Position numbers and translations under genes: made by a program. The notes below the pieces were generated by a model, which was not told the origin of the DNA, made no database searches, and was given only the letters and a program-made list of their open reading frames with translations. A stretch of DNA of 64,000 bases from Coptis chinensis (Eukaryota; Streptophyta; Magnoliopsida; Ranunculales; Ranunculaceae). Positions within the stretch are counted from its first letter, which is position 1. Each line of letters begins with the position of its first letter. Below, in pieces: positions 19,744-63,508 of the stretch. Location: the NCBI GenBank assembly GCA_015680905.1, contig CM027382.1, positions 5,642,001-5,706,000 of the forward strand, given 5' to 3'.

Positions 19744-21184
19744 TGATAAACACTAATTTACATAAACTAACTATCTATGAGTAAACACAAATAATCAATC
19801 AACTAAAGTACTTAGATCAATATTCCTACTCTCAAATATAATAATAATGAAGTAATATAAAGAGTCAGGATTTGTTCCACTCCTAAACTACCAAGAAATA
19901 AATGGAATTCAACTAATTTAACAAAAGGAAACAATGGTGAGAGCAATAATTATGGATGTGAATTTATACTACGAGATAATACTATCAATTGATCTTATAC
20001 TAATATTAATTAAAGTAATTATTTATAGATGAATCAAATATAGAGAAGAATAGAGAGAGATTGAAATCCACTTTAATTAATACTTAATATGTTAGCATAG
20101 AGTTTGTTGTGAAACCCTAATCTTTACATTCAAACACAAGGTTCAAACATAAAGATTAGACCTTTAATGATCCCTAATTAATTATGGTATCTCTAGTCAT
20201 AACTAATTAGCATGAGAGAAAATTTAGATTAAACTCACTATTCTCTAGTTTAGATTAAACTCACTATTCTAATGGAAAAACTCACTATTATCTAGTTTAG
20301 ATTAAACTCTTCTTATTTATAAGTCAAGAAAAACCTAAACTTGAAGTTCTAACCAACAATTCTATACTAACAAATCAAGTCCTCATCAAAGCTTTACTCA
20401 AACCCTCTCTAATGGAGGTTTATCTTTGATTCATGGGACTATCATGAATAAAAGAATGAGAAGACGACATAATATAAAGAGAACCAATTGAATTGAATAA
20501 TAATAATAACTTAAAGGTATTTTAATGGAGGTTTATGGAGACTACAATTATAAACCTTAATTACGTAATTAAACTAAAGGGAAGAGGTAGGAGAGAAGAG
20601 GAATAGAGTTTTGCCTTAATCCTCTTTATATAGGAGAGGGTTAGATTTATAATTTCATGCATGGGCTTTGGAGCTGTGTTTTGGGCCACTAAATCAAGCC
20701 CAAAACCTAAATACTTGTGTCCAAAAAGGGTTTTCTGGCTGGAATTTACTGCAAAACTCATTTCGTCCACTTTTACTCCTATGATTGGGTCAAAGTTTAA
20801 ACCATTAGAAATATTTTTTTGAGCCGGTCGTTTTGACATATAATAGGCCCAATTCCGAGGTCTGAGCCTAAAGATACAGCCTGCGGAAGTTCTACTGACT
20901 TTTATGCTCTATTTCTGCCCGCATTGACTTTGACTTTTCAGTTTTGATCGAGATTTAAAAATGTTTCTTCTCTTTGAAACTTAGGCTTTAATCATATAAC
21001 TTCTTAGCAACCAACCTTTGCTCCTTTCTCTTGCAAAAGTGACATAATTTTTCACATATTTGATTCTAAGACCTAAAATACACAAAAGTACATAAACATT
21101 ACTAACTCTTATTTATTATAAACATAATTAGCCTAGATGTAATATTATTAAGGGGTTAAAATTACAGTTTTTGGGCTCTTATCA
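19744..21184 (-). mobile_element. Athila 3' LTR
   Basis: Homologous along its length to 28562-29918 and 60636-62000. A TATA box (TATATAAAG on the minus strand, about 20625-20633) is kept in all three. The outer 250 bases near 19744 are the most diverged. Confidence 0.88.
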
Positions 21185-21442
21185 AACTACTCCCAAACAG
21201 CATTTTGTTTGTCCTCAAACAAATATGTGAAATTAAAATAAGTGGCCAAAAATGTATTCCTAATTAATCTCGTTTTGCCGAGTGCAATTACATTGACTAT
21301 ATGTAATAAGGTCTTAAACCACTAGGAATTCCCGAGTGGATGAGTTATAGCCTCGTGAGAGTTTTCTAGAGAAGGTACTCACAAACTTTATTTATACTAT
21401 AACGACTAAGAAATAAAAGTAATTGTTCCCTAATTTAAATAT
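21185..21442 (-). other. Athila 3' interior up to the Pack-MULE
   Basis: Aligns with 62001-62255 of the second Athila element. Contains the purine-side tract by the LTR (GTTTGGGAGTAGTT on the minus strand) that should serve as polypurine tract. Confidence 0.75.
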
Positions 21443-21715
21443 GGGTATTTAGACTTTGGTCCTAACAATAATGGGTTTATTAGGGTTTGGTCCAGAAAAG
21501 CTTGAATATTAGGGTTTAGTCATAGTTCTGGTTGTTGCAACTGAGTTGAATGTGGTCAATTTGCTTGTATTTTTGAAATGACAATAATACCTCTCGCATG
21601 CAACATCACGTGAATATATAAGTTAGACTTTAATACAAGAAATAAGGTCATCTTCTAGGACTTGGTCCCTACTGTTATTTGACAAATTAGAGTTTAGTCC
21701 TACTTGTCAACCATT
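21443..21715 (+). repeat. Left terminal inverted repeat of Pack-MULE
   Basis: Pairs with 23015-23295. Ends inward at GTCAACCATTA. Confidence 0.9.
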
Positions 21716-22004
21716 AGAAAAAACCAGTCTCAACAGCGGAGGATCCCTTTTCCATCTTATTTGCCCCGACCCCTGTCTCAGCTTCAGACGTTGGAAAAGG
21801 AACAACTATAACCTATGCATGTTCCTCTTCTATGGATTATGGGTAAACAACCCTTTCTCTCACCTGGATCGATCAAAAGCCCATTACAAACACCTATCAA
21901 TAGAACCACAAGCAAACCTTCATTGACTCTGAACGAGATTCCGATAAATCCCCTCACTCCAGCGGAGAGAGGATGGGTATTATTGCAATTAATTTCAATT
22001 TCAG

Positions 22005-22896
22005 TTCAGTGAAAGATTTTGTCGAGTACTCTCTTCAGATGGCTGCATTACCTATATCATCTAGTTTTGGATCCCAACCTTCTAAAGGGAAAGGAAAATA
22101 TGGTCTGGCTGGTCCTGCTAGTCTGTCTCAAAGACAAATCATACATGATGAGGTTTTTAAGATTCTAAAAGGAGAAGTCACATTGTCATCAAATGAAGAT
22201 AGCGACAGCCTTAAAGTTGAAGCTGATAAACCCCTCCGTCTTGAGATTGATCCTATCAGCCCACTTAGAGTGGTACTTCTTGCTTCAGTCGCTTTTCATG
22301 AACAGGTGGTCAAGCCTGGTGCATCTACCTTGCTGACAATATCGCTATTGTCACAGCTCCCCCAACCAGTTGAGATTGATCAATTGGAAATCCAATTTAA
22401 TCAGCCTGCATGTAATTTCCTGATCAACAGTGCTCAGCAACCACCGGTAGATGCAACATCTTGTGGTCAACAAGATTTGTGGGTAGAGAATGCTCCATTT
22501 TTAAAATTGATCACAAATAAGTGGCTACGCTTGACATACGACATAAAATCTGGTATGCATCTGATCCCCTATGTATTTTCATCCATTCTTACTTTATTAC
22601 CACTGCAACTTTGAAACACTACTATGATTGCAAAACAAAGTGGAAAGCTTGACTACATATCTGTGATCTCAAAGGCGGGACCTTGTTTCACAATTATTTG
22701 CCGAGCTGAAAGCCCTGGCTCAATGGACGAGTTACCTCTTTGGAAGTTTGAGGAGCGTGTTAATACGTTGCCAACCAAGGACCTTGGTCTTGCATTCTCT
22801 GGCCAGAAGGTTATTCAAGTTGAGGAGCAGGATTCACAAGTTGATATAGTTTTAGGTGCTACTGGTCCCGCATTAGTTGGAGAGAGCTTCTTAGTC
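22005..22896 (+). pseudogene. TRAPPC11: Captured TRAPPC11 (trafficking complex subunit 11) fragment
   Basis: TRAPPC11 is a subunit of the TRAPP complex that acts in ER-Golgi trafficking and autophagy. Two exons are readable. Exon 1 (22005-22552), after an acceptor TTTCAATTTCAG, encodes KDFVEYSLQMAALPIS, GLAGPASLSQRQ, PLRLEIDPISPLRVVLL, SVAFHEQVVKPG, QLEIQFNQPACNF and TNKWLRLTYDIKS, with no stop. Intron 22553-22633 begins GTATGC but its acceptor AG has become AA (22632-22633). Exon 2 (22634-22896) encodes QSGKLDYISVISKAGP, PLWKFEERVNTLPTKD, AFSGQKV and LGATGPALVGESFLV, then leaves homology. The reading frame is unusually clean for this window. It lies wholly inside Mutator-type inverted repeats and is roughly a quarter of the normal protein. 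Confidence 0.9.
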
Positions 22897-23014
22897 AAGA
22901 AAAACCACTATTTCATCTGGTCCTGGTAAACACGGAGAGAGCTTTGCTTTATTCATAGTAGTCAGGTTATCTTAGCGCCTCTTGTTATTCAGTCCCCTGT
23001 TTCAGCCCATTATT

Positions 23015-23295
23015 TAATGGTTGACAAGGAGGACTAAACTCTAATTTGTCAAATAATAGTAGGGACCAAGTCCTAAAAGATGACCTTATTTTTTGTATCA
23101 AAGTTTAATTTATATATTAACGTGATGTTGCACGCGAGGGGTATTTTGTCATTTAAAAATACAAGCAGATTGACCACAGTCAACTCAGTTGACTAATAGC
23201 CAACAACAAGAACTATGACTAAACCCTAATATTCAAGCTTTTTGGACCAAACCCTAATAAACAAACTATTGTTAGGACCAAAGTCTAAAAAACCC
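23015..23295 (-). repeat. Right terminal inverted repeat of Pack-MULE
   Basis: Reverse complement of 21443-21715 with scattered mismatches and small indels. Confidence 0.9.
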
Positions 23296-23969
23296 TTTAA
23301 TCTCAGAATCTATATATCTCACTAGTATTTAAACAAGGATGATCATTCTAAAACTTAAACTAATACATGCATAATAATCAAATCATCTTAAGATAAACAA
23401 CTATATAATGAACTATGATATGAAATGCAATGGCAGGTCCGTTTATGAAACTTTTGGGTAGAGTGCCTAAGTAGGTTCTCACAAAGAATGTGTCAAAACA
23501 TATAACACTCTGATTTTTCCACTCAAGTTTGCTAATTCCAGTGTGCAGTGGGCACACATTTCCTTACAATCTCAATGACAATCCAAGAAAGTCGAGGTTG
23601 ATCAAACACATCTACCACTTATTATTACACCAACATATTCCTAATTGAGCTAGATGTCTTTATTAGGTGATACAGGGGGCATAGATATTGGTTAAAGAAT
23701 GAAGGAAATGGATATTCAAAAAGACAAATCTGAGAAAATAGGGTCTTCATATTATGTAACTTAGAGAAAATTTTGTTCTTTTGCTTCTACACTTTTTTCT
23801 CCATACTTAGCCCTTATTTTGGCTTTTGACTCCTTTTATTCTATTTTTGGAGTTCTAACTTTTTATTTTTCTTTCGAAGCAACTAACTAATTTTTGTTTA
23901 CACAGGTTTTTCTCTTCTCTTTTCTTTACTCATCCTATTTCTCAGACTTATCCAGATAGGTTGGCTTTT

Positions 23970-24031
<62 letters not shown>

Positions 24032-25340
24032 TATATAAATATTTTTTTTTTTTTTTTATTTTGTTTCATTGGGTAAAAGGATTTGTGGTTTGTGAAAAGG
24101 CTAATAGGGCTTAGTGGGGCGACTAGCGGATAATAAATTTCATATATGTGTGAATTTCTGGCTATATCGATCTAAAAAAGGCCTAAATTCTCGCTTAAGA
24201 TATGGTGTGGTGATCAAGCAAGTGGATGTGTGATTTCTCTACTCGGAATTTACTTCTCCCTTGTGTCATCACTTAGATATTTCACTCTTATGAGGCTTTT
24301 AGGCTGGATGCTCACATGATATGTATTAAGTACTCTAACCTAGGTCTCAGAAAAATACTACCAGGTACAATCAAAGATGCTCATGCAAGATGTTCGTGAA
24401 AAGATGCAATGACTATTACTTACGTATTAATCTAAGTTTCAAAAATTAAATCATAATTCAAGTACTACATGAGATTTCTAGACTAATATCATCATGCTGG
24501 AGAAGGGAATAATACCATTATTACTAAGTGCATAACATAAACTATATTTTTTATTTTTAACATTTTATAAAGAAAAGTGCGTAATATACAACCTAAAAGT
24601 GCCTAATTTTTGCAAATGTTTCTATCCCACCCCTAAACAATCGAATGCTTCGTCCTCAAAGTGTAAAGAGATAATGAAAGAATTTATCATAGAAACGTGG
24701 CAAAAATTAGCAGTACCTGTAACAGAAATATTATAAAGAAGATATGATAACATGAAACACAATTACTGTTACATATTAACTAATATGGACTCTACTAGAG
24801 TAAACATGACAGGCAAAGGGTGGCAACAAAATTTGAAATGAAATACCATAATACACCACCCCCAAAAAAAATTTGGAAACTCTTTTAAAGTTTGAAAATT
24901 TTTGTGGCCTATACTCCAGAAAGGTTGTATGTTACAAAAAATTATTTTTTAAGTTAGATTCCCTAGACTTAATGTGATATATATATATTAACATACAATT
25001 TACCATATATGAATAATCTAAATAATTGTGGATCTTTCCATAAATAGTTAACATGGAAAACACCATCAAACAGAATTAAGCACCAAGATTTCCTATGACG
25101 TGGCTTAGTGGAATGAGAGAGAAGCCTGATAGATCTAGAACCTAATCGAGCATACATTTTTTTTTTTTCCTCATACGAAAGGGATGCCAAGTGAATGAGC
25201 ATGAAAAAATGGATGGTTGTGGAAGATATATGGGATATGGATAAGTTTTAGACGGAAGGAATGGAAAAAATGAGAGCATGGGTTTAGCACAAAACTTATT
25301 GGTGGCATGGGTTGGTATTATCACACATATGAAAATGAAG
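23296..25340 (-). other. Athila 3' interior, non-coding
   Basis: Aligns with 62258-64000 of the second Athila element (for example CAGTGGGCACAC near 23546 and 62494). Includes an (AT)n tract. Two short minus-strand ORFs near 24969-25324 read LASLSYEEKKKMYARLGS- and LSFFPFLPSKTYPYP-like strings; I cannot assign them. Confidence 0.7.
23973..24028. repeat. (AT)28 microsatellite
   Basis: Uninterrupted AT dinucleotides inside the Athila interior; the second Athila has an independent AT tract at 63513-63578. Confidence 0.95.
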
Positions 25341-25363
25341 GTATCAGGTGGCTCTTTAGGTAG

Positions 25364-25645
25364 TTATTGAGAGGGTGGATCATTATAGGCTTTTAGAAAC
25401 TCGTTGAATTCCTCATCTAAGTTGTTCGCATCCACATAATTATGATATTCATCTCTATCTTTGAGGAATTCATCTATCTCGTCTGTTGTGAGATTGACTC
25501 CATCTCTCATAGGGTCAGAAGGTAGGGTGGAAAATTCTTTCTTTAATTCAGTTATGTTCAAGGATTCAAAATTGTGATCTTTGTCTTCTTCCATAAGAGG
25601 GGTATCTACTAGTGTGGGGATAAATGTGAGATACAAAACTCTCAA
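25364..25645 (-). pseudogene. Athila pol linker remnant
   Basis: Open frame of 93 codons, acidic (MEEDKDHNFESLNITELKK, TTDEIDEFLKDRDEY), directly downstream of protease on the minus strand, where Athila polyproteins have a linker before reverse transcriptase. No polymerase motif follows: homology jumps straight to 3' interior sequence by 25340, marking a large internal deletion. Confidence 0.55.
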
Positions 25646-25679
25646 TGGCCTTCACTTCTCCTTCTACAGGAAAACCTAG

Positions 25680-26483
25680 TTATCCCTGCTTTTGTCTAAA
25701 CATGTTAACTTTCACAAAAAGATTTCCAAAAGAAAGAGTCATTGAGCCATTCCGACAATTGATTTGGGCATTGGCGATTGCCAAGAAAGGACACCCTAAG
25801 ATGATGGGAATGGAATCATGAGCAACTTCTATGTCGAGAATAACGAAATCGGCTGGATAGTAAAAATCTTGAACTTTGGGATACTTAATAGAATGATCGG
25901 CTAACTGCAAAGTCATTTTGGTTGGTTGAAGCTTTGTTAGACCTAGTTGTTTATATAAATAAAAAGGGAGTAAGTTAACATTCACCCCCAGGTCTAATAA
26001 AGCAGTTGTTATGAAGTAATCTCCCAAGGTGCATTGTACAGTAGGACGACTATGGTCCTTGTACTTAATAATTCCATTATGTTCAGATAAAGAGGGATAT
26101 TGTTTAGTTAAGAAGGCTTCGTTGGGTATGTTGGTTTTCCTCTTCTTGGTGCACAACTCTTTTAAAAACTTAGCGTGTACAAATATACTTTTTATAGCAT
26201 CTAGAAAAGGTAGGTTTATAGTTAGATTTTTAAACACTTTCCTGATCTCATCAAAATTCTTGCCTTTTTTAGACACAACTAGTCTCTGGGGATACGGTGG
26301 TTTATCTCTATATTTAGCATAAGGGTCAAAAATATTATTAGTCTTTGCTTTATCTTTAGCCATTTTCCATCTAGGTGTCCATATTGGAACCTCTACAGGT
26401 GTATGATCATCAATTTCTATGACAGTATTTGGTATGGTTTCATTTTCAGCTTCCGTTTGAGAGCGATCTGTAAGCATATGCAC
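25680..26483 (-). pseudogene. Athila protease (retropepsin-like) region
   Basis: Open frame of 267 codons. It contains DPYAKYRDKPPYPQRL, FLKELCTKKRK, and the aspartic protease core LLDLGVNVNLLPFYLYKQLG followed by the strand with DFVILDIE and IILGCPFLA. The DLG triad with NLLP is the form typical of Athila-clade proteases. Stops separate it from gag upstream and from the acidic linker downstream. It could still fold, but with no polymerase the element cannot move by itself. Confidence 0.85.
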
Positions 26484-26499
26484 TTTGTTATCAACTACT

Positions 26500-27990
26500 C
26501 TACCTAAACAAAAGTAGTGACTGCCTGTAAGTTCCCTGGGGTTATATTACCATTACACTGAATACTATTTCGAAGGCGGTGCTTGTTGACTTAGGGTTAG
26601 ACACTGCTTGACCTGGAAACACGCCTATTTGGTTATTATTTTGGTTAGGAGACATGTCAATAACCTTTTGGCATAAAGATTGCATCATTTGCATCATTTG
26701 TTACATCATTTTAGAGTTTTGATCATGATGATCTTTCATCAAGTTGGAGTTTTGTTGCATAATTTGATTTTGTTTTTCCAACAAGGTCACTACTACTTCG
26801 TCTGTAGATGGTTGAATTGGAATTAAGGCTTGTTTAGCGTTCATGTATTGATGTTGATAGTTTTGGGTCCTAGGCATTAAACCTTTATTCCGGTCACCAA
26901 AGTTTCCTTGTCCTTAAGGTTGAGTTAACTGGTTGAAGTTTGATGGTTGTGGTGGTGGTTGCGCATAGACAAAAGGACAATAGAAGTCGGAATGCTCAAG
27001 ACTAAAACAGACATTATAATGGGTAGAGTTATTGTTCATGACTGGAGTGGGTTGTTGTTGAATAGAGAGGACATCTACCTTTTTAGTGAGGGCATCGATA
27101 AGGGTTTTAAGCTCGGGATAAGGTTTAACCTTAAAAGAAGAAGGAGTGGATCGGGAAGAGTCGCTATCTCCCCAATTGTTGTTCTTCTTAGATTGATCTT
27201 CTAAGAATTTATAAGCCTCCAAAGCTCCTTTACTAAGAAAACTACCCCCAGTCATGATATCTAGAACCACCTTATGATGATGTAAAAGTCTCTTGAATAA
27301 AGCACAAACAAGCGTGTCTTTTGCAAGGTTATGATGCGGACATTTTATGAGAAGATCAGTGAAACGGTTCTAGGCCTCTGAAAAAGATTCATGAGGGTTA
27401 TGGTGGAAGAAATGAATCTTTTGAAGCATTTTATCGGTCTTCAGTGGTGGGTAAAACTGTTCCATGAACAATTGAACAAGTTTAGCTCATGAGTCCATAG
27501 AGTTTGGCGTTTGGGCAATTAACCAAGACACCGCCTTGTCAGCTAGGGTGAATGGAAACACCCTAAGTTTAACTTGATCCGGACTTACGCTAGGATGATG
27601 GAATGTACAGTGAGAACTTGTTCTATCCTACGTATGTGTTGGTAAGGCTTCTCGGGGTCTAAACCATGGAAAACCGGTAACAAGTTAAATATATTTGGGG
27701 GAATTTGAAAATCCCCCACTAGGTCTGCAAGAACGATGCACGACTTATGGCCATCGTTTAGTGTTTTATAAAAATTAGAGAGAAGAATCTCTAGTTCTTT
27801 AGCCATTAATGCAGGTGTAGTGTGTGAAATTCTTGATAGGCGTGTGGTATTGTGTTTACGAAAAACAAGCCTGATTATACTAGAATTAAACTCCTCAGAC
27901 AGAAAAAACGAGGAGTGGAAGAAGGAGAACCTGAATGCATCCTTGCTACGCTTATGAATAGCATCTTGTATATGCAATCTCAGTGTACTG
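26500..27990 (-). pseudogene. Athila gag, interrupted
   Basis: Frames on the minus strand run in order: LPVFHGLDPEKPYQHIRRIE (27620-27680), LRVFPFTLADKAVSWLI, FYPPLKTDKMLQKIHFF (about 27400-27470), GGSFLSKGALEAYKFLED (27180-27260), then Gln/Pro/Asn-rich sequence and LMPRTQNYQHQY. This is the Retrotrans_gag fold plus spacer of Athila. At least five in-frame stops separate the pieces. Confidence 0.85.
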
Positions 27991-28059
27991 AAGAAGTTTG
28001 GAACACTGAATATAAAATAATTTGAACAAAAATAGAGTCTGCTACTAACCTGTGAATCG

Positions 28060-28561
28060 GGCTTTCTTCAGAAAGGGCGCAGGCGAGCTCAAATATAAGG
28101 CCACAAAGGAGCGTGCGCGCTCTGTGATTTTTTTTAGAAACAGGCTTTCGTGCTGTTCCTTAATGGGCTGGGCCTTGAAATTTGAAAATAAAACAGGAAA
28201 TAAATTTACTGTAGGTAGGGCACGTGCGCGCTCAGAAGGAGTGTAAATAGGGCGTGCGCGCTTCTGAGAACAATTGCGGAAATTTCCAGTAGACTTCTAG
28301 GAGCAAAATTTACTTTATTTTTGGACAACAGGTGTGTGCGCGCTCAGAAATAGCGTGGATAGGGCGCAGGTGCGCTCCTAAGTACAATCTCAAAAATTTC
28401 CAGTAGACATCCAGGAGCGAATTTCTGTTTTTCCTGAAAACACAAACACAGTTAAAACCAAACAAAGGGTGGGTGGGTAAGAATGGGGATTGCCCCTTGG
28501 ATTCAAGCAATTGAATTCTTGTCTTGAAAGAGTTTAAGATGGTAGCGTCGCCATTTGATAA
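28060..28561 (-). other. Athila 5' leader with GC-rich repeats and decayed primer site
   Basis: Between gag and the 5' LTR. Motif GTGCGCGCTC or close variants occurs near 28113, 28224, 28254, 28336 and 28369, partly because a block of about 110 bp is duplicated (28220-28314 and 28331-28426). Next to the LTR the minus strand reads TGGCGACGCTACC, a mutated form of the Athila primer site. Confidence 0.7.
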
Positions 28562-29918
28562 TGTTAAAAACAAGTTCTTACTCTATAAATAATATTATTT
28601 ATGCTAAGAATAAGAAAACTATATTTTTATGCTTAGATCAAAGTTTTACTCTCAACTATCGTGAAATAACGAGAGCAAAGATTCGTTCCACTCTTTGTTT
28701 CTTAAACTTAATAATTTAACTAGTTTAACAATTTTACTATATCAATGAGAGTAATTATTTAATTATACTAATGTGATGGGAATTAATATTAAGATAACTA
28801 ATTTATACTATTGCAATTTAATATGGAGAATTAATGGGAAGAGAAATTAGGGGGATTTGAATTCACTTAAATAAATTCCTAACATGCTAGTGTAGATTAT
28901 TGCAACCCTAACCAATAATGATTAAGTATTTGATCCCTAACTATTCATGGTATCTCTAACCAAATAATAGAAAGTATTAGAGTTAGTTTAACCCATTCTC
29001 ATGGTGAATAAACTAAACTCTAGATTGATAAACTATGTAAAAGCAATAATCTAACTAACACATCAAGTCATCATCAAATTAAAGTTTCATTCAAACCCTT
29101 TCTAATGGAGGTTTAGCTTTGATTCATAGGAATATCATGAATAAAAGAATGAGAAGAAGACATAATATAAAGAGAAGCAATTGAATTGAATAATAATAAT
29201 AACTTGAAGGTATTTTAATGGAGGTTTTATGGAGGCTACAATTATTTAGTTTAATTACTTAATTAAACTAAAGGGAAGAGGTAGGAGAGAGCTAATATTA
29301 AACCCTAATTAAATTAACTAAGTGGGAGAGAAGAGGAATAAAGTTTTGCCTTAATCCTCTTTATATAGGAGAGGGTTAGATTTACAATTTCGTGCATTGC
29401 TTTGGAGCTGTGTTTTGGGCCACTAAATCAAGCCCAAAACCTAAATAATTATGTCCAAAAAGGGTTTTCTGGCTGGAATTTATTGCAAGACTCTTTTCAT
29501 CCACTTTTACTCCTATGATTGGGTCAAGGCTTAGACCATTAGAAAGATCTTTTCGAGCAAGTCACTTTGATGTACAATAGGCCCAATTCCGAGGCCTGAG
29601 TCCAAAGATACGGCCTGCGGAAGTTCTGCTGACTTTTATGCTCTATTTCTGCCCGCATTGATATTGAATTTTTCAACTTTGACCGGGCTTTAGAAAGGCT
29701 TTTTCTCCTTGAAACTTGGGCTTTAACCACAGAACTTCTTAGCAACCAACATTTGCTCCTTTTTCTTGCAAAAGTGACATAATTCTTCACATATTTGATT
29801 CCAAGACCTGAAATACACAAAAACACGTAAACATTACTGACTCTTATTTATTATAAACATAATTAGCATAGATGTAATATTATTAAGGGGTTAAAACTAC
29901 AGGTTTGGGCTCTTATCA
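28562..29918 (-). mobile_element. Athila 5' LTR
   Basis: On the plus strand starts TGTTAAAAACAAG and ends GGGCTCTTATCA. Partner of 19744-21184; TATA box near 29360-29367. Confidence 0.88.
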
Positions 29919-37086: not shown

Positions 37087-37650
37087 CTAAGTAGTAGAAG
37101 CACCACCCCCACTAGAAGCACCACCACCACTAGAAGCATCACTTGGAATTCCAAATGTTCCACTCTCTCTCCTTTGGCGAATTATCTCAATTTTCATCAT
37201 CTTGAAGTATTCGGCAACTTCCGGCTCAAAAGTAGAAGTATCTTGTACTAATATTTTGTTGTCTTCTTTCCACTTCTTGAGCTCCATCATTTTCACCCTA
37301 TCGGCGGCGATATTCGTCATTTGTGCCAAATACTTCTCCATCATCTTGTAATTTTCTCCTCCTTTCTTCATCCTTTCTTTCTCACCACTTGTTCCCGGTG
37401 GTCGTTTTTTCTTGGCTCTACTTCCACTTGCATTTCCACTTTCACTTCCACTTCCACCTCCACTTCCATCCCTAACTTGTGTAGGAAATGGATCAATTGG
37501 AATGCCACCAAGAGTTGCCGACGGCATTGTGGGTGTTGAAGGCACGACTTCGTCATCTACATCGAGAATGACGTTGGTTCGTCTCCTCGATGTAGTTGTG
37601 GACCGCTCTCAAATTCTTCATTCCATTTTGGGCTATCCTTGAGGATGACC
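37087..37650 (-). pseudogene. PIF/Harbinger second ORF (Myb/NAM-associated type)
   Basis: The minus-strand frame of 152 codons reads GGIPIDPFPTQ, Ser/Gly linker, KKKRPPGTSGEKERMKKG, LKKWKEDNKILVQDTSTF and IEIIRQRRES, ending in Gly/Ser-rich sequence. Harbinger elements carry a second Myb-like or NAM-associated protein that helps the transposase; the basic PPGT motif followed by MELKKW helices fits it. Upstream, SPKWNEEFE can be read near 37600. It lies 180 bases past the transposase end, convergent with it. Truncated at its N-terminus by the Copia junction at about 37650. Confidence 0.65.
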
Positions 37651-37689: not shown

Positions 37690-38810
37690 TTGTTACGTCT
37701 AGGTTCCTCCTCAATTTTGTTTTGTGTAGGATGGTTACTAGTTGTAGCGTCTAAGGTTCTCTTTATTGAACTTGGTTCTATACACATGTTATATGGAAAC
37801 GTATTTTCAAATAATGAAGCATTCCTTGACTCAATAATCGTATTAACATGTATATCTTGAATCTCTGATTTATGAACGAGAAAACGACATGCACTACTAT
37901 TGTTTTCATATCCAATGAATACACAATCAATAGTCTTGGGGTCCTATCTTCACCTTCTTAGGTTTAAGGACTTCCACTTTAGCAAGACACCCCCACACTT
38001 TTAAGAATTCGTAGAAAGTCTGATGACCTTTCCACAATTCGTATGGTGTTTTAAGTGTCTTCTTGTTAGGAATCTTGTTGAGAATGTAATTGGCAGAAAG
38101 TAAAGCTTCCCTCCACAAATTCTGGGGGTAAACCAGAACTTAAGAACATAGCATTCATCATCTCTTTTAGAGTTCGGTTTTTGCGTTTAGCAATATCGTT
38201 TGATTGAGGTGAATAAGGAACCGTAGTTTGATGAATGATTCCATGTTCAGAACAAAAACTTTCAAAAAGTGATTCATATTCACCTCATCTATCACTCCTT
38301 ATAGCCTTAATCTTTTTGCTTAGTTGATTTTCAACTTCATTTTTATAGTGTTTGAACACTTCAATTGCTTCATCTTTACTTCTTAACAAGTAAACATAAC
38401 TATATATCTAGTGATATCGTCAATAAAAGTAATGAAATACTTTTTATCACCTCTAGTATGCACTTATTTAAGATCACATATATCTGTGTGTATTAAGTCT
38501 AGAGGTTCAGTACTTCTTTCAATGGAATGAAAAGATGATCTGGTCAACTTGGATTCTACACAAGTTTCACATTTATGGTGTGGGTCTATTTTTATCTTTG
38601 GTATATAGTCCAAATTAATTAATCTACGCAAAATATCATAATTAACATGTCCTAATCTACCATGCCATACATGTGAAGACTCAATTAAGTAAATAGAATA
38701 TTCAACTTTATTGGCGCTCTTTGGCGCAATAGTAAAACAAGATATCCTAAGAGCCCATCCTGAAGATAGCCCTTTCCCACGAATACATCATTCTTAGTTA
38801 GTACAAATTT
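37690..38810 (-). pseudogene. Copia integrase remnant
   Basis: Translated in pieces: TTVPYSPQSNDIAKRKNRT near 38170-38230, NAMFL, then ANYILNKIPNKKTLKTPYEL and KVWGCLAKVEV (37927-38118) and EEPRRNKRSRT near 37690. These are the integrase core end and C-terminal GKGY-like part of Copia. Several stops. The sequence leaves Copia homology just before reverse transcriptase would begin. Confidence 0.82.
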
Positions 38811-40035
38811 ATCAAAACAAATACTAACTTAAAGCCATTCTTGCTCAGCAGCGACCTAGAAACCAAGTTTTTGCAAATGTCAGGCACATAGAGCACCTCA
38901 TTCAGAGTTAGTTTCTTCCCATAAGTTAACCTCATCACCACCTTTCCTTTGCCTTCAACCTTGGACGTAGAAGAGTTTCCCATAAAGAGTTGTTCTTCCT
39001 TTTCCATAGAATGATAAGTGGTGAACATCGACTTGTTGGAGCATATGTGGCGAGTAGCACCAGTATCCACCCACCATTTCCTTTCATTTCCAATCATGAG
39101 ACATTCAGAAACCACATCATATAGGTTCATGTCATTAACATTATCAGAAAGCGTGTCCATTGTCACATTTGCTTTAGTATTTTGCTTATTGTACTTTTTT
39201 GGCTTGCGACATTCACTTGCCTTATGTCCAACCTTTCCCACAGTTGTAGCATTTGCCCTTGAAGTTAGTAGGCATACTACTCTCTTCACCTTGAGCTTTG
39301 TCTTGGCGCTTCCTCTTTCCCTTAGCACTTGATCCTTCCACAACATTGGCCTTTGCCACCATGGGATTTTTTCCCTTCTTCTCAGATAGGTGGTTATCTT
39401 CCTCTATCCTTAGACGGACAATCAGTTCTTCAAGATTCATATCTTTGCGTTTATGCTTAAGATAGTTCTTAAAATCCTTCCAAGATGGTGGTAATTTCTC
39501 AATCATTGCAACCACTTGGAAAGATTCTCCTAGGGTCATTCCTTCAGCAATGACATCATGGAGGATTACTTGAAGTTCTTAGACTTGGCTTATGACGGTC
39601 TTACTATCCATTATTTTGAAATTAAGAAATCTGCCAACTATGAATTTCTTCATGCCAAAGATCTTCACTCTTGTATTTCTTGTCCAACCGAATCCCAAAG
39701 TTCCTTAGCGATCTTGAACACACTATACACATTGTATAATGAGTCACCAACGCTAAAGAACATAATTTCTACACAAGAAATCAGCATGAAACCAAGCATC
39801 CTTGGCCAAAACCTTCTTCCCCTGTCGGTTTTATCGGGCTTTATCAAGAGCCTTATCCCACGAAACCTTGCCAAGTTAAGGGGTGGTCGATAGAAGAGCA
39901 TCTTACATTGCCGGTAAAATTAGTTCCATTGAACTTTTCAAGTTTCTCCCCATGAGGAACAAAATGGGGAACAACAGTAGGAACAGTAACAGCAGGTGTA
40001 ACTGGTGGTGTTGCCATATTCTGAAATACAACCAT
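38811..40035 (-). pseudogene. Copia gag, zinc knuckle and protease
   Basis: ATG near 40017 opens MATPPVTPAVTVPTVVPHF and GEKLEKFNGTNF (Gag start). Later pieces give VAMIEKLPPSWKDFKNYLKH, the zinc knuckle CYNCGK with GHKASECRK (about 39210-39250), and protease [12 protein letters not shown] (about 39050-39080) with [16 protein letters not shown]. The CCHC spacing is broken by a frame change in the knuckle. The DTG active site is intact. Confidence 0.85.
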
Positions 40036-42271: not shown

Positions 42272-43646
42272 AATTGGATCGGATTGGGTTTGGGATACGT
42301 GGGCCTGTTTTTTGGGCTCGAGTCTGTATTGGGCTTGGGTTTCAAACCCAAGTATATAATCACATTGTTCTAGAAAATAGGGTTTTTAGAAAATAAAAAA
42401 ATAATAAAATTGAGGCGGCTTGTTTGCTAGAGCGTGGGAGCGCGACGATTCGGACGATGAAGGGTTCATTGAGTTTTAATACAGGTGAGTAGATTAGTTT
42501 GCTAGTTTACGTCTAAATTTATTGTTAAGAATTTCTGCTCATGTTTTCGGTTCATTATTCGGTTATTATTATTCGTCCTATCGTTGTGAAAACTGGTTAA
42601 ACTGTAGTTGATAAAACTTGTTAAATTGTCTGTTGAAACTCGGAAAATCGACATGGAACTGTCGAACCTTGTTTGGGCCCGTGAATGGCAATGCAAGCCC
42701 AACAGCAAGAAAACGTCCCATATTTTGGTTTGAACTCTTTTGGGTTGGTTTTGAACCCGTACTGATGTGGTTAGGATTGAAGATGTTGGGTGGTGGTGGT
42801 GAAGTGTTGGGGTATTTGTTGGTTGAAATCGGTGGTTAAAATGTCGGGATGGATATTGGGGGTGGCGGTAAAGCTTGCATTGTTCATCAATGGCGTGGCC
42901 TGTTATGATGTTGGTTGAACTCTTGATGTTTTGTTTTTTTTAATGTGTCGGCTGGAATGGATTGTTTGGTGGTGGTTGTGGGCTGGACAATGGTGTGGCT
43001 GAAGCTTCGAAAAGCGTTAATGGCGGCGGGAATTATTCTAGATCTAGTTTTGGGTGAAGTTTGGATTGAATGAATTGAGGATTTCGTGTTTGTTAAAGTG
43101 GTGGGGGTTTGCACCCTCTTCATTTTCGGTTGGTTGGAAAGGGGTGGTGTGTGGATATTGTGGAGGCCGGACTTGAGCAGCTGGTGGTGGTTGTTGGAGA
43201 AGATGATGACTTGGGCTTGGGCTTGGGTCGGGACCAAGTGGGTCGGTTTTGGTTTAGGCCCAATTCTATTTTAGTTGTTGGGCCCGATTTTATTTGGTTT
43301 AGTTTGGGCCCAGTTTAGGTTAAGTTGTTCGGGCTAAAACTAGTTGGTTTTGTCTTGGGCCTTGGTTGGTTTTGGGCCCGATTTTAGTTTGTTTTGTTTT
43401 GGGCCAGTTCTATTAGTTTTCTTTGGGCCGGTTTCTAATTTATATGGGCTGGTCCTTATGTCCCCAATTGGGTCAGGTGGAATAAATAAGTTGGTTTTAG
43501 ACTTTTGGGGCCGGGTTTTAAGGTTTGGGCTTGGCCAGTTGGGTCCGAACCATTTCCTTAGTCATGAGCCCTTGAGCCATGCACCTTTGCCCTTAGCCAT
43601 GAACCATGGCTATGACTCTGAACCTGTTGAACATGGAAATGATAGT

Positions 43647-43712
43647 TTGACTTCGACCATGATGTGTTGACTTTGACTTTGATAGTTGACCGTTGACTGT
43701 GGAATGTTGACT
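43647..43712 (+). promoter_or_regulatory. W-box (TTGACY) cluster, inner LTR
   Basis: Six TTGACT or TTGACC cores within 66 bases. W-boxes bind WRKY factors in defence and stress responses. It lies inside the LTR, so any role is in driving the transposon or a neighbour. Confidence 0.5.
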
Positions 43713-44524
43713 TTTTCCAGTTTTTCATATATTTAAGAATATGGACAAATATAGTAATAAAATATTATCGTAAATTGTATAACTTGGTTGGTCATTATCT
43801 AATTAAGATTTGACATGAGTAGTACGTAAAGCATATAAATATTTGGCACATAACAAGAGGGGAATTCTGATAATAAGAATTTGATATATATGTTTTTATG
43901 AGTATTAAATTATATACGGACTTAGATTTATGGACTTTAGTATTGGGATTTGATTGTGGACTGTGGACTGTTTAATTGTGCTACGTTTTATGTTGTAAAT
44001 TGTATGGACAAATCAAATGCTAAAATGCTGTGGAAGCTTGTATAAATTTGGTTGTCGTTATCTAAAAATGATTTGACGTTGATATTGTGTATATTTTGAC
44101 ACGTGACGAGATAGAAACTTTAGGAGATATAATATTCCTAAAATGCTACAAAAATATATGCGATACGTTTGAAGCAATTGTGACATTATATAATATCTTG
44201 GGATATATATATATATTAAATGCAATAGTTTTGAAGAAATAAATGTATAGACACTCCATTATTTTATCTGTGAGATGCTAGTAGAGTATTTGTGGATATT
44301 TCCCACGGGATTGTGGCGTAGTGCAATAATATTTTGGCACGCGAAAGAATGAAAGTGGTTATGAGATATAATTGAGATATTTCTAAATATTGTGGCTTAG
44401 TGCAATAAGGTATTTGACCTGCATGTGATATAGTGGAATTATTATGAGTCATAAATGGATGACACTTGAATAAATTACGTAACGAAAATCCTAGAACCTA
44501 GCTACCACAACTGATGTGATTTGG

Positions 44525-44665
44525 CCCTTCTGGCGTTTCAGTGAATCTGAATGGCCTTTGGGCGTAAGTAATGTGATTGACCCTTCTGGCGTTTAAGTGA
44601 ATCTGAATGGCCTTCGGGTGTAAGTAATGTGATTGGCCCTTCTGGCGTTTCAGTGAATCTGAATG
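44525..44665. repeat. 56-bp tandem repeat in inner LTR
   Basis: CCCTTCTGGCGTTT(C/A)AGTG starts at 44525, 44581 and 44637. A diverged reverse set lies near 46615-46720. Confidence 0.9.
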
Positions 44666-45134
44666 GCCCTTACAAAATAGCCGAATAGTGGCTTGATTAT
44701 TCCGTTCGCAAAATTAGAACGAGACGCGCGATATTTTATGCCGAATAGTGGCAGTATTTGCATAATGGCTTTCGTGTGAGGCTTACCTGGTGTGCGGCAT
44801 CCCGCTCAGGGTAGTTACGCACGGAATGGTTCATTATGTAAGGGGAGGCATGTGGATGTACATGTTCGGCGTTGGGAAGTGATTGTGGTAGCCAGGAAAA
44901 CTAGGTAAGACATAGATACGACGTGATTTTAGGGACACGCAAAGAAAGCCTGAAATAATCTAATTATGGTAATATGTTGGTTAATGAAGTATCTTTAGAT
45001 AGATGTTTGTATATGGTTTTGCAGAAGGGTGGGTCAAACTAATTACTTGGGTAGAGACGACCCACTCTGTTATTGAGCATGAAATGTGGTACGGATATAA
45101 TATGTTTGGTTGGTTATTTGTTTAGTTAGAATCT

Positions 45135-45310
45135 AAGGCGCCTCGATGGAGGAACTACATGCCTTATTTATGATGCGTATAGTTTGTTGTGTGGTTAGTG
45201 GGAAGTTAAGGCGCCTCAGTGAATGAACTACCTGCCTTAGTTATTGAACTTAAGGATGTTGTATTAGTCGTTGGAAGTTAAGGCGCCTCGATGGAGGAAC
45301 TAATTGCCGT
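45135..45310. repeat. 72-73-bp tandem repeat in inner LTR
   Basis: AAGGCGCCTC starts at 45135, 45208 and 45280, each followed by GGAACTA- or TGAACTA-type words. The reverse set lies near 46025-46165. Confidence 0.9.
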
Positions 45311-47434
45311 ATGGATTGTGTATATATATGTATAATTATATGTTGTATTTTAGAGCTACTCACACCAGTATTTTTATAATGCTGACCCGATTTGCATGTT
45401 TGCTTATCGGGTGTGTTCATTAAATGAACATAGTTGATAAGTATTGACAGGTTTAGTGTTGAAGAAGGTTGGCTGCTGCTTGTGGTTTGCGTTAGCATCG
45501 CATTTCAAGATAGGTTTTGTTTTCCTTTGAGGTGATATAGATTTTTCAGTTGAGGCAAGGTTATTTGCATTTTCATTTGTAAATTTTTGTAATGAAGAGG
45601 AATTTTGTTTAAGTTAAAAATTTTATTGGTTTTTAATTATCCGCATATTTAAACTGTTTATGTGTTTTTGGAAGTGGAGAGTGTGTCACACCTCGGAGAT
45701 CGAAGAGTCGGGAAACAAATAATGTTTTTTCCGAATTCTGTCGAAATTCGGGGTGTGACAATTTGTCTCAACTAAAAATCTATTACACCTTAAGGAAAAA
45801 CAAAACATATCCTGAATGCGACGCTAATGCAAACCACAAGCAGCAACCAACCTTCTTCAACATGAAACCTGTCAAGACTTATCAACTATGTTCATTTAAT
45901 GAACACACCCGATAAGCAAACATGCAAATCAGGTCAGCATTATAAAAATGCTGGTGTGAGTAGCTCTAGAATACAACATATACTTATACATATATATACA
46001 CAATCCATACGGCAGTTAGTTCCTCCATCGAGGCGCCTTAACTTTCCACGACTAATACAACATCCTTAAGTACCCTAATTAAGGCAGGTAGTTCCTCCAC
46101 TGGGGCGCCTTAGCTTCCCAATAATAATATAAAGGCATTTTGTTCCTCCACGAGGCGCCTTAGGTTCTAACTAAACTAATAACCAACCAAGCATATTCTA
46201 TACTTACCGCATTTCATGCTCAATTACAAAGTGGGTCGTCTCTGCCCAAGTAATTAGTTTGACCCACCATTCTGCAAAACCATATACAATCATCTATCTA
46301 AAGATATAACTCTAACCAACATATTACCATAATTATATTAATTAAGGCTTTCTTTGTGTGTCCCTAGAATTACGTCGTATCTATGTCTTACCTAGTTTCC
46401 CTGGCTACCACAATCGCTTACCAACGCCGAACATGTACATCCACATGCCTCCCCTTACATAATGAACCACTCCGTGCATAACTACTGGCGGGATGGATGC
46501 CGCGACACCGTAACCCTCACGAACGTCGTTATAAAAGATCGCCACTATTCGACATAAAATATCGCGCGTCTCGTTCTAATTTTGCGAACGGAATAATCAA
46601 GCCAGTATTCGGCTACGCCAGAAGGGCCATTGAGATTCACTGAAATGCCCGTAGGGCCAATCAAATTACTTACGCCCGAAGGGCCATTCAGATTCACTGA
46701 AACGCCAGAAGGGCCAATCAGATGAGTTATGGTAGCTAGGTTCTAGGATTTTCGTTACGTAATTTATTCCGGTGTCATACATTTATAACTCATAAAAATT
46801 CCAATATATCACGTGCAGGTCAAATACCTTATTGCACTAAGCCACAATATTTAGAAATATCTCAATTATATCTCATAACCACTTTCATTCTTTCACGTGT
46901 CAATATATTATTGCACTACGCCACACTCCCGTGGGAAATATCCACAAATACTCTACTAGCATCTCACAGATAAAATAATAGAGGGTTTATACATTTATTT
47001 CTCCAAAACTATTGCATTTAATATATATATCCCAACATATTATATAATGTCACAATATCAACGTCAAATCTTAATTAGATAATGACAACCAAATTTATAC
47101 AAAGCTTCCATCGAAAGATTTTAGCATTTGATTTGTCCATACAATTTACAATATAAAATGTAGCACAATTAAACAGTCTACAGTCCACAATCAAATCCCA
47201 AAAATCTAAAGTCCATGAATCTAAGTCCGTATATAACTGAATACTCATAAAAACATATATATCTAAGTCTTGTTATCATAATTCTCCTCTGGTTATGTGC
47301 CAATCTTATATTCTTTACACACTACTTATGTCAAATCTTAATTAGATAATGACAAACAAAGTTATACAATTTTCGATAATATTTTATTACTATATTTATC
47401 CATATTCTTTAATATGTGAAAAATTGGAAAAAAA

Positions 47435-47515
47435 AGTCAACATTCCACAGTCAACGGTCAACAGTCAACAGTCAACGGGTCAAAGTCAAAGTCAACACAT
47501 CATAGTCAAAGTCAA
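47435..47515 (-). promoter_or_regulatory. W-box cluster, outer LTR
   Basis: Ten (A/G)GTCAA cores, that is TTGACY on the LTR sense strand, in 81 bases. This is denser than the same site in the inner LTR. Confidence 0.5.
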
Positions 47516-49162
47516 CACGTCATTTCCATGTCTAATAGGTTCAGGGTCATAGCCATGGTTGATGGCTGAGGTCAAAGGTGCATGGTTCATGGGCTCAAGG
47601 CTAAGGTCATGGTTCGGACCCACTAGCCAAGCCCAAACCTTAGAACCCAAAAGTCTAAATGTTGAAATTTAGATCTATTTTAAGTTATATGGACCGGCCC
47701 CAAAACAAACTTGAAACTGGTCCAAAGAAAAGCAATTAGTTTTAGCCCAAACAACTTAACCTAAACTGGGCCCAAACTAAACCAAAACTGGTCCACAACT
47801 TAATCTGGAACTGGCCCAAAACTTAACATAAAAACCGGCCCAAAACTAAAATAGATTTTTGGGCCCAACCAAACAAAACTGAAATTTGGCCCAAGGCCTA
47901 ACCAGAGAACAGAGTCGTCTTCTCCAGTTTGCTTCTCCACCGCACCAACTTACGCGCCGCCAGCCACCACCTGACACCACTCGTCCTCCCCTTTCAATCC
48001 CACGGTTTCACTCCTGAACAAAAATCCCATATTTATATACAATAAAAACTCAATTCCCTCACCCTTCGAAAACTCAACCCCGACCGCCATTGAAGTTGTT
48101 TAAAGCTCCCAACAGCCCCCACTCTCCAATTAACAACCAAGTATCCATCCCTAACTCCTCCGACATCAACCCACAACCCATTCAAGCCGACAAATTCCAA
48201 ACAAGCAAACTACAACAGTTCAACCCACAGTATAACAGGGGACGCCCTTTCCGATTTCTCCAAACTTCACTGCCCCGACATCACGCAAACATCAACCTAA
48301 CAACCTAACATTCATCCCTTTACTACCACCCATCTTCAATCAACAACAAAACAACAAAAACAGTTAACATAAACTTTACTGGCGATTTCTCTGGCCGCTA
48401 TTAACAGCTTGCTTTGAGCTTCCACCAGCGCCCATCTCCAGCACTCACACACTCTACACTAGCTACCCCATCACCAACAACCCATCCCAACCACACTTTA
48501 ATCAATCTACTTCAACAACACAGTATAACAAACAATATACCGGACAATTGTTTGTTTGGGCTCGCAGCCGCTATTAACGGGCCCAATCAAATCTTCAACA
48601 GTTCAATGTCGATTTCGAGTTTTAACAACTAACGACAGTTTAACAAAATTTAACAACGGCAATTAACAAGTGTTTAACAACGACAGGACAAAGATTAATA
48701 ACAGAATAATTAACATGTTTCGTGAAATAGAAAACTAATCTACTCACATTAATCCCAAGCTCCACGAATCCTCCTAGTCCGAATCGTCGCGCTCCACCCT
48801 CCAGCAAATGAGTTTCTATCTCTGCCTCCATTTTTATTATTTTTTTATTCTCTAAAAACCCTATTCTCTAGAACAATGTGATTATATACTTGGGTTTGAA
48901 ACCCAAGCCCAACACAAACTCGGGCCCAGAAACCAGGCCCACATATCCCAGATCCAATCCAAGAGATTTTATATAAACAAATTAATTAATTAATAAATAA
49001 TTACGTATTTTAAATACGGGCGTTACAAGGTGTTTATAAATTTAGCAAATAAGGAGATTTCAATTTGCCTACTCGATAGTGGAGAGTGGGTTCCTGAAAA
49101 CCCGGCTATCATATAGTGTAGAGATTTGTTATGAAATCCGTTGGCCTACATGGATGCCCACC

Positions 49163-60635: not shown

Positions 60636-62000
60636 TGATAATAGTAAAAGCACGCTTTTACTCATATTTAGTTAATTAAACTAGGAAGAAGTAAAAACTA
60701 TTCTTAGGCTTGTGATCAAATTTCTACTCCCAATTATCATGTAATAAAATAGAGTTAGAATTCGTTCCACTCCTAGTTGCTTAGAACCTAACAATTTCAC
60801 TAATTTATACAATTCAACAATAACGATGATAGCAATGGTTTTAATTATACTAATATCGTAAAAACTAATATGGTTTATATTCTATATCAACTAAAGCAAT
60901 TAAATACGAAGATGTGAATGAAAAGAAGGGATTAGGGGGATTTGATATCCACCTTGATTAATCCCTAATATGCTAGTATGGATATTTGCAATCCTAATCT
61001 TTATGTTTTCACATGAGGTTCAACATAAAGGTTAGGTCTTTTGATCCCTAATTATTCATGGCATCTCTAACCAACTAATAATTAGCATGAGAGAAAGTTT
61101 AAACCCATTCTCATGGTGATTGAACTGCCCTCTAGATTGAAACTCTTAAAAGCAATTATTCTACACTGACACGTCAAATCTTCATCAAAGCTTTAATCAA
61201 ACCCCTCTAATGGAGGTTTAGCTAAGATTCATTAGACTATCATGGAAAACATAATAAGAATAAGACAATATAACTAAAGAATATAATGAACTTGAATTTT
61301 ATTAATGGTGGCTAGGTTTTTCTAAAAGAAGAGGTAGGAGAAGAGAATAATGAACCCTAATTAATTTAGACTAAGTTGGAGAGAGATATATAAATTATTC
61401 TAATTAATGGAAGGGAGAGCTAGAGTTCTCCCCTAGTCCTCTTTATATAGGAGAGGTTAGGTTTACAATTTTCATGCATGGGCTTTGGAGCCATATTTTG
61501 GGTCACTAAATCAAGCCCAAAACCTAATTAATCAAGTCCAAAAATGGTTTCTCTGCTAGAAATTACTACAACAACCTTTTTGTACACTTTTACTCCTCTG
61601 AATGGGTCAAGTCTTAGACCATTAGAAAATATCTTTCCGAGCTGGTCTTTTTTATGTATAATAGGCCCAATTTTGAGGTCTGAGTCCAGAGATACGGCCT
61701 GCAGAAGTTCTACTGACTTTTATACTCTATTTCTGCCCGCGTTGACTTTGACTTTTCAGCTTTGACTGGGATTTAAAAAGGTTTTTTCTCCTTAAAACTT
61801 GGGCTTTAACTATAGAACTTCTTAGCAACCAACTTTTTCCCCTTTCTCTTGCAAAAGTGACATAATTCTTCACATAGTAGACTCTAAGACCTGAAATACA
61901 CAAAAGCACGTAATCAGTACTAACTCTTCATTATTATAAACATAATTGGTCTAAATATAATATTCTTAAGGGGTTAAAACTACAGTTTTGAGCTTTATCA
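60636..62000 (-). mobile_element. Athila 3' LTR, second element
   Basis: Plus strand runs TGATAATAGT to GAGCTTTATCA. Homologous to the LTRs at 19744 and 28562; TATA box near 61442-61448. Left flank is CAACG (60631-60635); its partner lies outside the window. Confidence 0.88.
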
Positions 62001-63265
62001 AACCACCCCCAAACAGCATTTTGCTTGTCCTCAAGCAAAGATGAAAAATTAAAATAAGTGACCAAAATTAGAGTTTTAACTAGTCTCGTTTCGCTGAGTA
62101 CGATTACATTGACCATATACAATAAGGCCTTAAACCACTAGAAATTTCCTAGTGGACGAGTTATAACATCGTGAGAGTTTGCTAGAGAAGGTACTCACAA
62201 ATTTTATTTATACTACAACGACTAAGAAATAAAATTAATATTTTCTTATTTATTCTTAGATATCTATACATCTCACTAGCAATGAATAAAGAATAATCAA
62301 TTCGAAACCTAAGCTAATACGTGCATAATAATCAATCATCTGCGGATAAACATATATATAATGAACTATGCTATAAAATGTAATAACAGATCCGTTTATG
62401 AAACTTTGGAATAGTGTCCTTAAGTAGGTCCTCACAAATATGTTAAAACAAAAATACTCTGATTTTTCCGCTCAAGTTTCGCTAACTCTAGTGTGCAGTG
62501 GGCACACTTTTCCTCACAATCTCAATGACGTACAAGGTAGCCGAGGTTGATCAAATACATCTGCCACTTACTATCACACCAACCTATTCCTCATTAAGCT
62601 AGACGTTTTTATTAGGTGTTGTGGGGATTAGGCGATTGTTTAAGAAGGAAGGAAATAGATATTCAAATTAAAAAGACAAGTCTGAGAAAATAGGGTTTTC
62701 ATATTATGTAACTAGAGAAAACCACTGTTGCTTCTACATTTTGTTTCCATCCTTAGCCATTTTTTTCTTTTTCTTTTGGCTTTTGACTCATTTGATTATG
62801 TTTTTGGAGTTCTAACTTTTTTTTTTTTTTTGGATGGAAACTTTCTTTTCTTATTTGAAGCAACTAACACATTCTTGGTTTTCCACAGGTCTTTCTCTTT
62901 TCTTTTCTCCATTTCATCCTATTCTCAGACTAATTCCTAAAATGGGTAGCTGATTTTATTTTTATTTTGTTTTTATAAAAGGGTAAAGGATTTGTGGTTT
63001 ATGAAAAGGCTAAAGAAAGGCTCAGAGGGGCCGGGCGACTGGCGGAAAATAATTTCATATAGATTTGAATTTTGGGCTATATCGATCCAATAAGGGCCTA
63101 AATTCTCGCTTATGATATGGTATAGTGATCAAGCAAGTGGACGTGTGATTTATCTATTCGGAATTTACTTATCCCTTGTGTCATTACTCAGATATTTCAC
63201 TCATATAAGGCTTTTAGGCTATATTCTCACAGAAATTGTAGAATAAGTATTCTAGCCTAGGTTTC

Positions 63266-63508
63266 AGAAATTTACTGCCAATATAAACATAGATGCTCAT
63301 GCAATATATTTATAAAAAGATGCAATGATTATTACCTACATATTAACCTAAGTTTCTAAAAACTATTCTAATTTAAAAGCTAACGTGAAACTTCTAGACT
63401 ACTATCATCACAGAAAAAAAAAAAACAATACCAATATTCCTAAGTGCATAATATAAATACTTTTTATTTATAATATTTTTTTAAATTTTTTTACTAGAAA
63501 GCAAGTGC

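Follow-up and report, generated by a model that had tools for sequence, protein, structure and literature searches.

The element at 21443-23295 (+) of the 64,000-nucleotide stretch of Coptis chinensis DNA that was analysed (hereafter the window) is supported as a non-autonomous Mutator-like transposon (Pack-MULE), in which a segment of the gene for trafficking protein particle complex subunit 11 (TRAPPC11) probably replaced about 400 bp of a mosaic recipient element through template switching, after which the product transposed and, in the window, is probably decaying without selection. This kind of element is already known, and the value of the case is the record of donor, recipient and product. 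How Pack-MULEs take up genes is still debated, with template switching during repair on one side and fusion of neighbouring insertions on the other; a donor, recipient siblings and a product found together can help to decide, and here they favour stepwise template switching into a distant element.

The element, which begins with GGG and ends with CCC, is delimited by its inverted arms, the 9-bp duplications of its family and an empty site within the window. The arms are about 280 bp in length, the left one at 21443-21721 (+) and the right one at 23010-23295 (-), and the terminal inverted repeats (TIRs) of MULEs are typically 100-500 bp according to the published description (PMC3310237), a range that includes them. 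Local alignment of 21448-21716 with 23015-23289 gave 89.9% identity (E 2e-103), and an end-to-end alignment of the two arms had 257 of 276 aligned bases identical (93%), 19 differing and 13 gap columns. Between the arms lie 893 bp of TRAPPC11, composed of two part-exons and one intron. The first-pass annotation, which described inverted repeats of about 275 bp around two exons and one intron of TRAPPC11, is thereby confirmed by both the arm alignment and the match to the parent gene. On either side of this segment the element retains older cargo of the recipient (21722-22002 and 22896-23009, both +), common to the related elements L034, L035 and L036; the left part includes the point, near 21875, at which about 155 bp were deleted, and a predicted intron (21843-22004, +) whose acceptor now stands directly before TRAPPC11. 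The interior is explained by TRAPPC11 and old cargo, and a Pfam scan of 5 of the 11 frames of at least 45 aa revealed no family, transposases included. No folding signal was seen for the left TIR as single-stranded DNA (z -0.62), IMG/VR scans found no relatives of the TIR pattern or of the protein, and tRNA and Rfam scans of the whole window were empty.

The captured segment was recognized from its protein relatives and from its parent gene. For the frame at 21973-22611 (+), 283 candidates included 62 relatives at E <=0.001, and one of these is named as TRAPPC11 of Prunus (E 3.5e-49). The frame at 22624-22926 (+) has a single relative, with 73% identity over 89 residues, and this protein extends past the end of the homology in the element. 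In the fragments themselves the Pfam scan detected no domain, and a sequence search of solved structures returned no match. A search of the genome for the parent gene and for sister copies recovered the parent, further TRAPPC11 copies and siblings free of TRAPPC11. The parent gene is L039 (contig C87), in the same genome as the window, with open frames of 399 and 503 codons that include Foie-gras and Gryzun-like domains. It matches only positions 561-1453 of the element (22003-22895, +) at 95.2% identity, and its exons continue beyond the captured segment on both sides; TRAPPC11 homology thus ends inside the arms and nowhere runs past the repeats into flanking DNA. Comparison with the gene resolved the segment into part-exon A (22005-22552, +), with its left end cut, an intron (22553-22633, +) that is 81 bp in the gene, and part-exon B (22634-22895, +), with its right end cut. 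The early impression of hardly any coding damage holds for the exon frames, which are open, but not for the intron, whose acceptor dinucleotide has changed from AG to AA, so that the damage is not nil. No inverted repeats and no match to the TIR of the element family were found in 10 kb of the gene. In Abrus precatorius, a short annotated protein (P0055, 223 aa) spans almost this part of TRAPPC11, without the intron, and reflects either a faulty gene model or a capture in that plant as well.

The state of the element before capture can be read from its relatives. The element was used as the query against the whole genome (935.6 Mb, 116 contigs), and the 40 scored of 746 candidates gave at least 101 matches, so all counts of family members and copies given here are lower bounds. 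The TRAPPC11-free siblings L034, L035 and L036 have the 564 bases of the left side, expanded in the middle by some 155 bp, and the 400 bases of the right side in common with the element; between the joints, 400 or 401 bases of the siblings correspond to 884 of the gene. The sequence at the left joint is TTTCAGTTGTCG in sibling L036, CTAAGTTCAGTG in the gene and TTTCAGTTCAGTG in each of the four TRAPPC11 copies, with AGTT common at the switch; that at the right joint is CTTAGTTCC in the gene, ACAGTCGAG in two siblings, ACAATCAAG in the third and CTTAGTCGAG in the copies, apart from single changes in L032 and the window copy, with AGT shared. A scripted count gave a left microhomology of 4 bp with all three siblings and a right microhomology of 1 bp with L034 and of 3 bp with each of the other two. 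Among random joints, the overlap reached 4 in 1.8% of draws and 3 in 5.6%, while at least 4 together with at least 3 occurred in 0.16%. Such microhomology is what template switching during repair predicts. The cargo of the siblings is itself a mosaic, in which six non-overlapping stretches resemble loci on other contigs, some over only 35-38 bp.

The steps of the capture are read as follows. Comparison shows that a recipient of about 1.5 kb, already a mosaic of genomic pieces and represented only by siblings that are about 10% different from it, gave up some 400 bp from within, and that 884 bp of TRAPPC11 with its intron stand there instead, joined at AGTT on the left and AGT on the right. The joining was probably a form of gap filling, in which DNA synthesis switched template to TRAPPC11 during the repair of a break inside the element. 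The alternative that two family members flanked a piece of TRAPPC11 and moved together as one is the published model for Pack-TYPE elements, for which DNA acquisition was argued to be a fusion of neighbouring insertions (PMC8903248), and the newest cargo is innermost here as well. Fusion is nevertheless very unlikely: in the 10-kb TRAPPC11 loci the family TIR yields a single 16-base match (E 0.002, in L037) and none in L038, L039 or L040, and the joints, which show microhomology, interrupt old cargo from which a corresponding stretch of about 400 bp is gone.

Loci outside the family bear on the direction of change. L068 (C8:38.2M) matches L036 unbroken over 681-753, across the left joint at 692, of whose left side it reaches only 11 bases, and L073 (C8:18.4M) matches L036 unbroken over 1050-1120, across the right joint at 1093. 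Similarly, L056 (488-619) and L064 (544-656) span the point near 573 of L036 at which the copies lack about 155 bp. Because these non-family loci follow the sibling uninterrupted through both joints and the deletion point, the siblings hold the older state. A reversed order of events, with TRAPPC11 present first and other sequence swapped in by the siblings, draws on the fact that microhomology at the joints carries no direction and on an ancestor known only through the siblings, but the four non-family matches stand against it and make it highly improbable.

Capture of TRAPPC11 by template switching, as preferred here, was followed by movement of the product. TRAPPC11 is carried by the window copy and by L031 (C6:94.4M), L032 (C2:6.7M) and L033 (C4:80.4M, with a deletion), and L041 (C7) is an additional 3' fragment of such an element. 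All readable copies have one base and the gene another at 17 sites; in 12 of these the base of the copies is absent from every TRAPPC11 copy of a second family described below, and at the other five, three of which look like changes in the gene itself, it is present in at least one. A 6-bp insertion, counted as 5 bp in L032, also unites the copies, and the loss of the intron acceptor is common to the three of the four copies that still hold the intron. In a tree of the segment the four copies are set apart from the gene and the second-family copies with a support of 100. These shared derived changes, the lost acceptor included, point to one capture followed by transposition. By the distribution of copies, the product moved and yielded at least four copies on three large contigs and the 3' fragment, the window copy having entered an older long terminal repeat (LTR) retrotransposon, and the transposase was presumably supplied by an autonomous relative. 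The suggestion that capture or transposition was fairly recent is therefore to be divided: the insertion in the window is younger than its host, but the capture is older than this insertion, since at least four copies share it.

Whether the fragment could be used as a gene was considered from several counts. The exon frames are open in the window copy, and stops or frame shifts occur in L031, L032 and L033. Replacement and silent changes of each copy's own numbered 11:9 in the window copy, 10:10 in L031, 13:10 in L032 and 13:3 in L033, with sites that split two versus two counted for more than one copy, and the replacement share expected without selection is about 74%. At sites conserved at the 95% level the window copy departs in 3 of 41, and at least as much departure occurs in 2 of 54 relatives, in an alignment from which 7 of 63 proteins were left out and 2 more were dropped as near-duplicates. 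The open frames were rejected as a sign of selection, because both the conserved-site departures and the replacement and silent counts fit neutral decay. One may suppose instead that the fragment is selected as a chimeric gene, in which an exon of old cargo is spliced in frame to part-exon A: splice-like sites at 21842/21843 and 22004/22005 are predicted to join the frames, the splice of 21842 to 22005 would keep the TRAPPC11 frame (M-D-Y-G, then TRAPPC11), and the frames open here are those broken in the other three copies. This has very little likelihood, as the ratio of 11:9 resembles those of the broken L031 and L032, the TRAPPC11 intron has lost its acceptor and the AG that follows runs into a stop, and the location is within a retrotransposon. 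Judged by its sequence, the fragment offers no case for a selected product, and the window copy is probably decaying without selected function. The case predicts chimeric splicing across 21842/22005 and small RNAs that could also match the TRAPPC11 gene.

The assignment to the Mutator superfamily depends on the family as a whole. Long TIRs and target duplications of 8-11 bp were described as marks of Mutator-like elements (PMC3310237; PMC6446971). Both ends of 17 elements were inspected, with the ends allowed to shift by a few bases, and a perfect 9-bp duplication was found in nine (L034, L036, L042, L043, L045, L046, L047, L048 and L051), although L047 and L048 share one insertion site in a duplicated region and are counted separately in this number. 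Four elements have 8 of 9 bases identical (L031, L033, L050 and L035, the last in an A-run), L044 has 8 of 8, L049 7 of 9 and the window copy 5 of 9, and the truncated L032 has none. These 9-bp duplications in family members identify the element as a Pack-MULE; the identity given to it at first is thus supported, but not by inverted repeats alone, which are no proof of a MULE. That the element belongs to another TIR superfamily, or consists of unrelated inverted repeats around a pseudogene, would suit the decayed duplication in the window and the lack of a transposase in the fetched family members, but is extremely improbable given the long TIRs and 9-bp duplications across the family and the empty site of the window insertion. 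Among the fetched members no autonomous partner or transposase with these TIRs was found, and the 6.1-kb L046 has no frame of at least 110 aa. The members at L047:643-3409 and L048:458-3204, which represent one insertion within a duplicated region that is 97.9% alike, include LRR-like and reverse-transcriptase-like stretches, both below the Pfam cut-off. TIR divergence was discarded as a means of dating, since the two arms are 4 to 9% apart in every one of the 15 elements compared, copies with perfect duplications among them, and so are no clock.

The Pack-MULE sits 258 bp inside its host LTR retrotransposon, in the 3' region of the latter. The host (19744-29918, -, with the insertion included) is complete, with a 3' LTR at 19744-21184 (-), a 5' LTR at 28556-29918 (-), the 5-bp duplication CAGAT on both sides and K 0.147 between the LTRs. 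The nesting reported by the first-pass annotation is borne out by this complete LTR pair with CAGAT around the insertion. A host frame at 25680-26546 (-) has 169 aspartyl-protease relatives at E <=0.001, and all three that were scanned belong to Asp_protease_2; two further internal frames may correspond to gag, which they resemble. No frame in 23296-28560 is longer than 288 aa, and no reverse transcriptase, RNase H or integrase was detected in the five internal-region frames scanned against Pfam. The assignment to Athila, which had been proposed for the host, is tentative: placement in that lineage is made by these three domains, and the name Athila is absent among the best 120 of the 169 protease relatives. 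With a protease frame and neither a reverse transcriptase nor an integrase among its scanned frames, the host may be non-autonomous. Elsewhere in the window, another retroelement shows a Pol_BBD and retroviral-protease stretch at 38801-39403 (-), and 37090-37608 (-) contains a NAM-associated domain, a domain that occurs in some transposon proteins. Inverted arms of more than 2 kb (43248-45558 and 45763-47873), 79-86% identical and about 200 bp apart, form a palindrome that could be a source of hairpin RNA, and two direct-repeat arrays (327-920 and 1175-1632) show 84-92% identity between shifted copies.

The LTR and 3' region of the host recur in the window at 61200-63310 (-), there without the insertion, and this second copy provides the empty site. 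Counted between outer anchors, the occupied flanks hold a net nine extra bases relative to it, and one single-base gap on each side in the same alignment makes the local surplus readable as ten. The nine bases beside each TIR, TTTAAATAT on the left (21434-21442) and TTTAATCTC on the right (23296-23304), align to one shared nine-base stretch of the empty site and form a putative decayed target duplication; the right flank is 7/9 identical to the empty site (62249-62257), and the two flanks are 5/9 identical to each other, or 6/8 if the duplication is taken as 8 bp. Random flank pairs reached 5/9 in 8% of draws and shared the first five bases in 0.2%. The published limit for a Pack-MULE target duplication is at most two mismatches (PMC3310237), and the window copy, at 5/9 or 6/8, falls short of a 9-11 bp duplication within this limit. 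The view that the Pack-MULE moved after the host was in place agrees with the empty site and with the divergences: since its common ancestor with the other TRAPPC11-carrying elements the window copy has gained 0.022 substitutions per site on its own branch, under one third of the host divergence of about 0.073 per LTR (half of K), which places the arrival of the Pack-MULE well after that of the retrotransposon. As few coding MULEs of maize and rice were reported to be inserted into other elements (PMC3903597), the nesting here is uncommon rather than strange.

TRAPPC11 is also carried by a second TIR family. L037 (C6:18.65M; element at L037:5291-7385) is bounded by an inverted repeat of another kind (arms of 191 and 55 nt, 95%) and has, with the ends allowed to shift, a perfect 9-bp duplication. 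It had been considered as the parent gene and was rejected on account of these two features. The loci L037, L038 and L040 are all unlike the gene; L038 and L040 share parts of the ends of L037 and carry frame shifts, and are therefore read as damaged copies of an L037-type element. At six sites where these three agree against the gene, the copies of the window family have the base of the gene at four and theirs at two. This pattern favours two separate captures from the gene, and an early transfer of TRAPPC11 from one TIR element to the other is possible. Chances are evenly balanced that one genome keeps the capture record of recipient, donor and product and that the second TIR family took the same TRAPPC11 interval independently. 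If so, plant Pack-MULEs would acquire genes stepwise by template switching in trans, and some genes would be acquired repeatedly.

A literature search whose scope was mostly outside subscription journals found no paper on a TRAPPC11 Pack-MULE, and, within the same scope and judged by titles and the beginnings of abstracts, no donor-recipient-product set for a plant MULE. Among known systems, the host is similar to Athila and other Ty3-type LTR retrotransposons as described in PMC6317226 in its long LTRs, 5-bp duplication and protease frame, and differs from them in that no reverse transcriptase or integrase frame was found. The Pack-TYPE elements of PMC8903248 resemble the present element in stepwise growth with the newest cargo innermost, whereas here neither the edges of the cargo nor the surroundings of the parent gene have remnants of the family TIR. 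In animals, microhomology was reported at capture joints, and the question was judged worth exploring for plant Pack-MULEs (PMC8277862); those captures, though found in animals and in other superfamilies, are alike in joint microhomology, in later transposition to multicopy and in a source on another contig. The closest likeness is to the Pack-MULEs of rice, maize, tomato and Arabidopsis described in PMC3310237, with which the element shares long TIRs, family duplications of 9-11 bp, no transposase, a host-gene fragment with an intron and several copies, as well as a size close to the tomato range. It differs from them, as far as that description goes, in a window duplication decayed past the usual limit and in that donor, TRAPPC11-free siblings and copies are all present.
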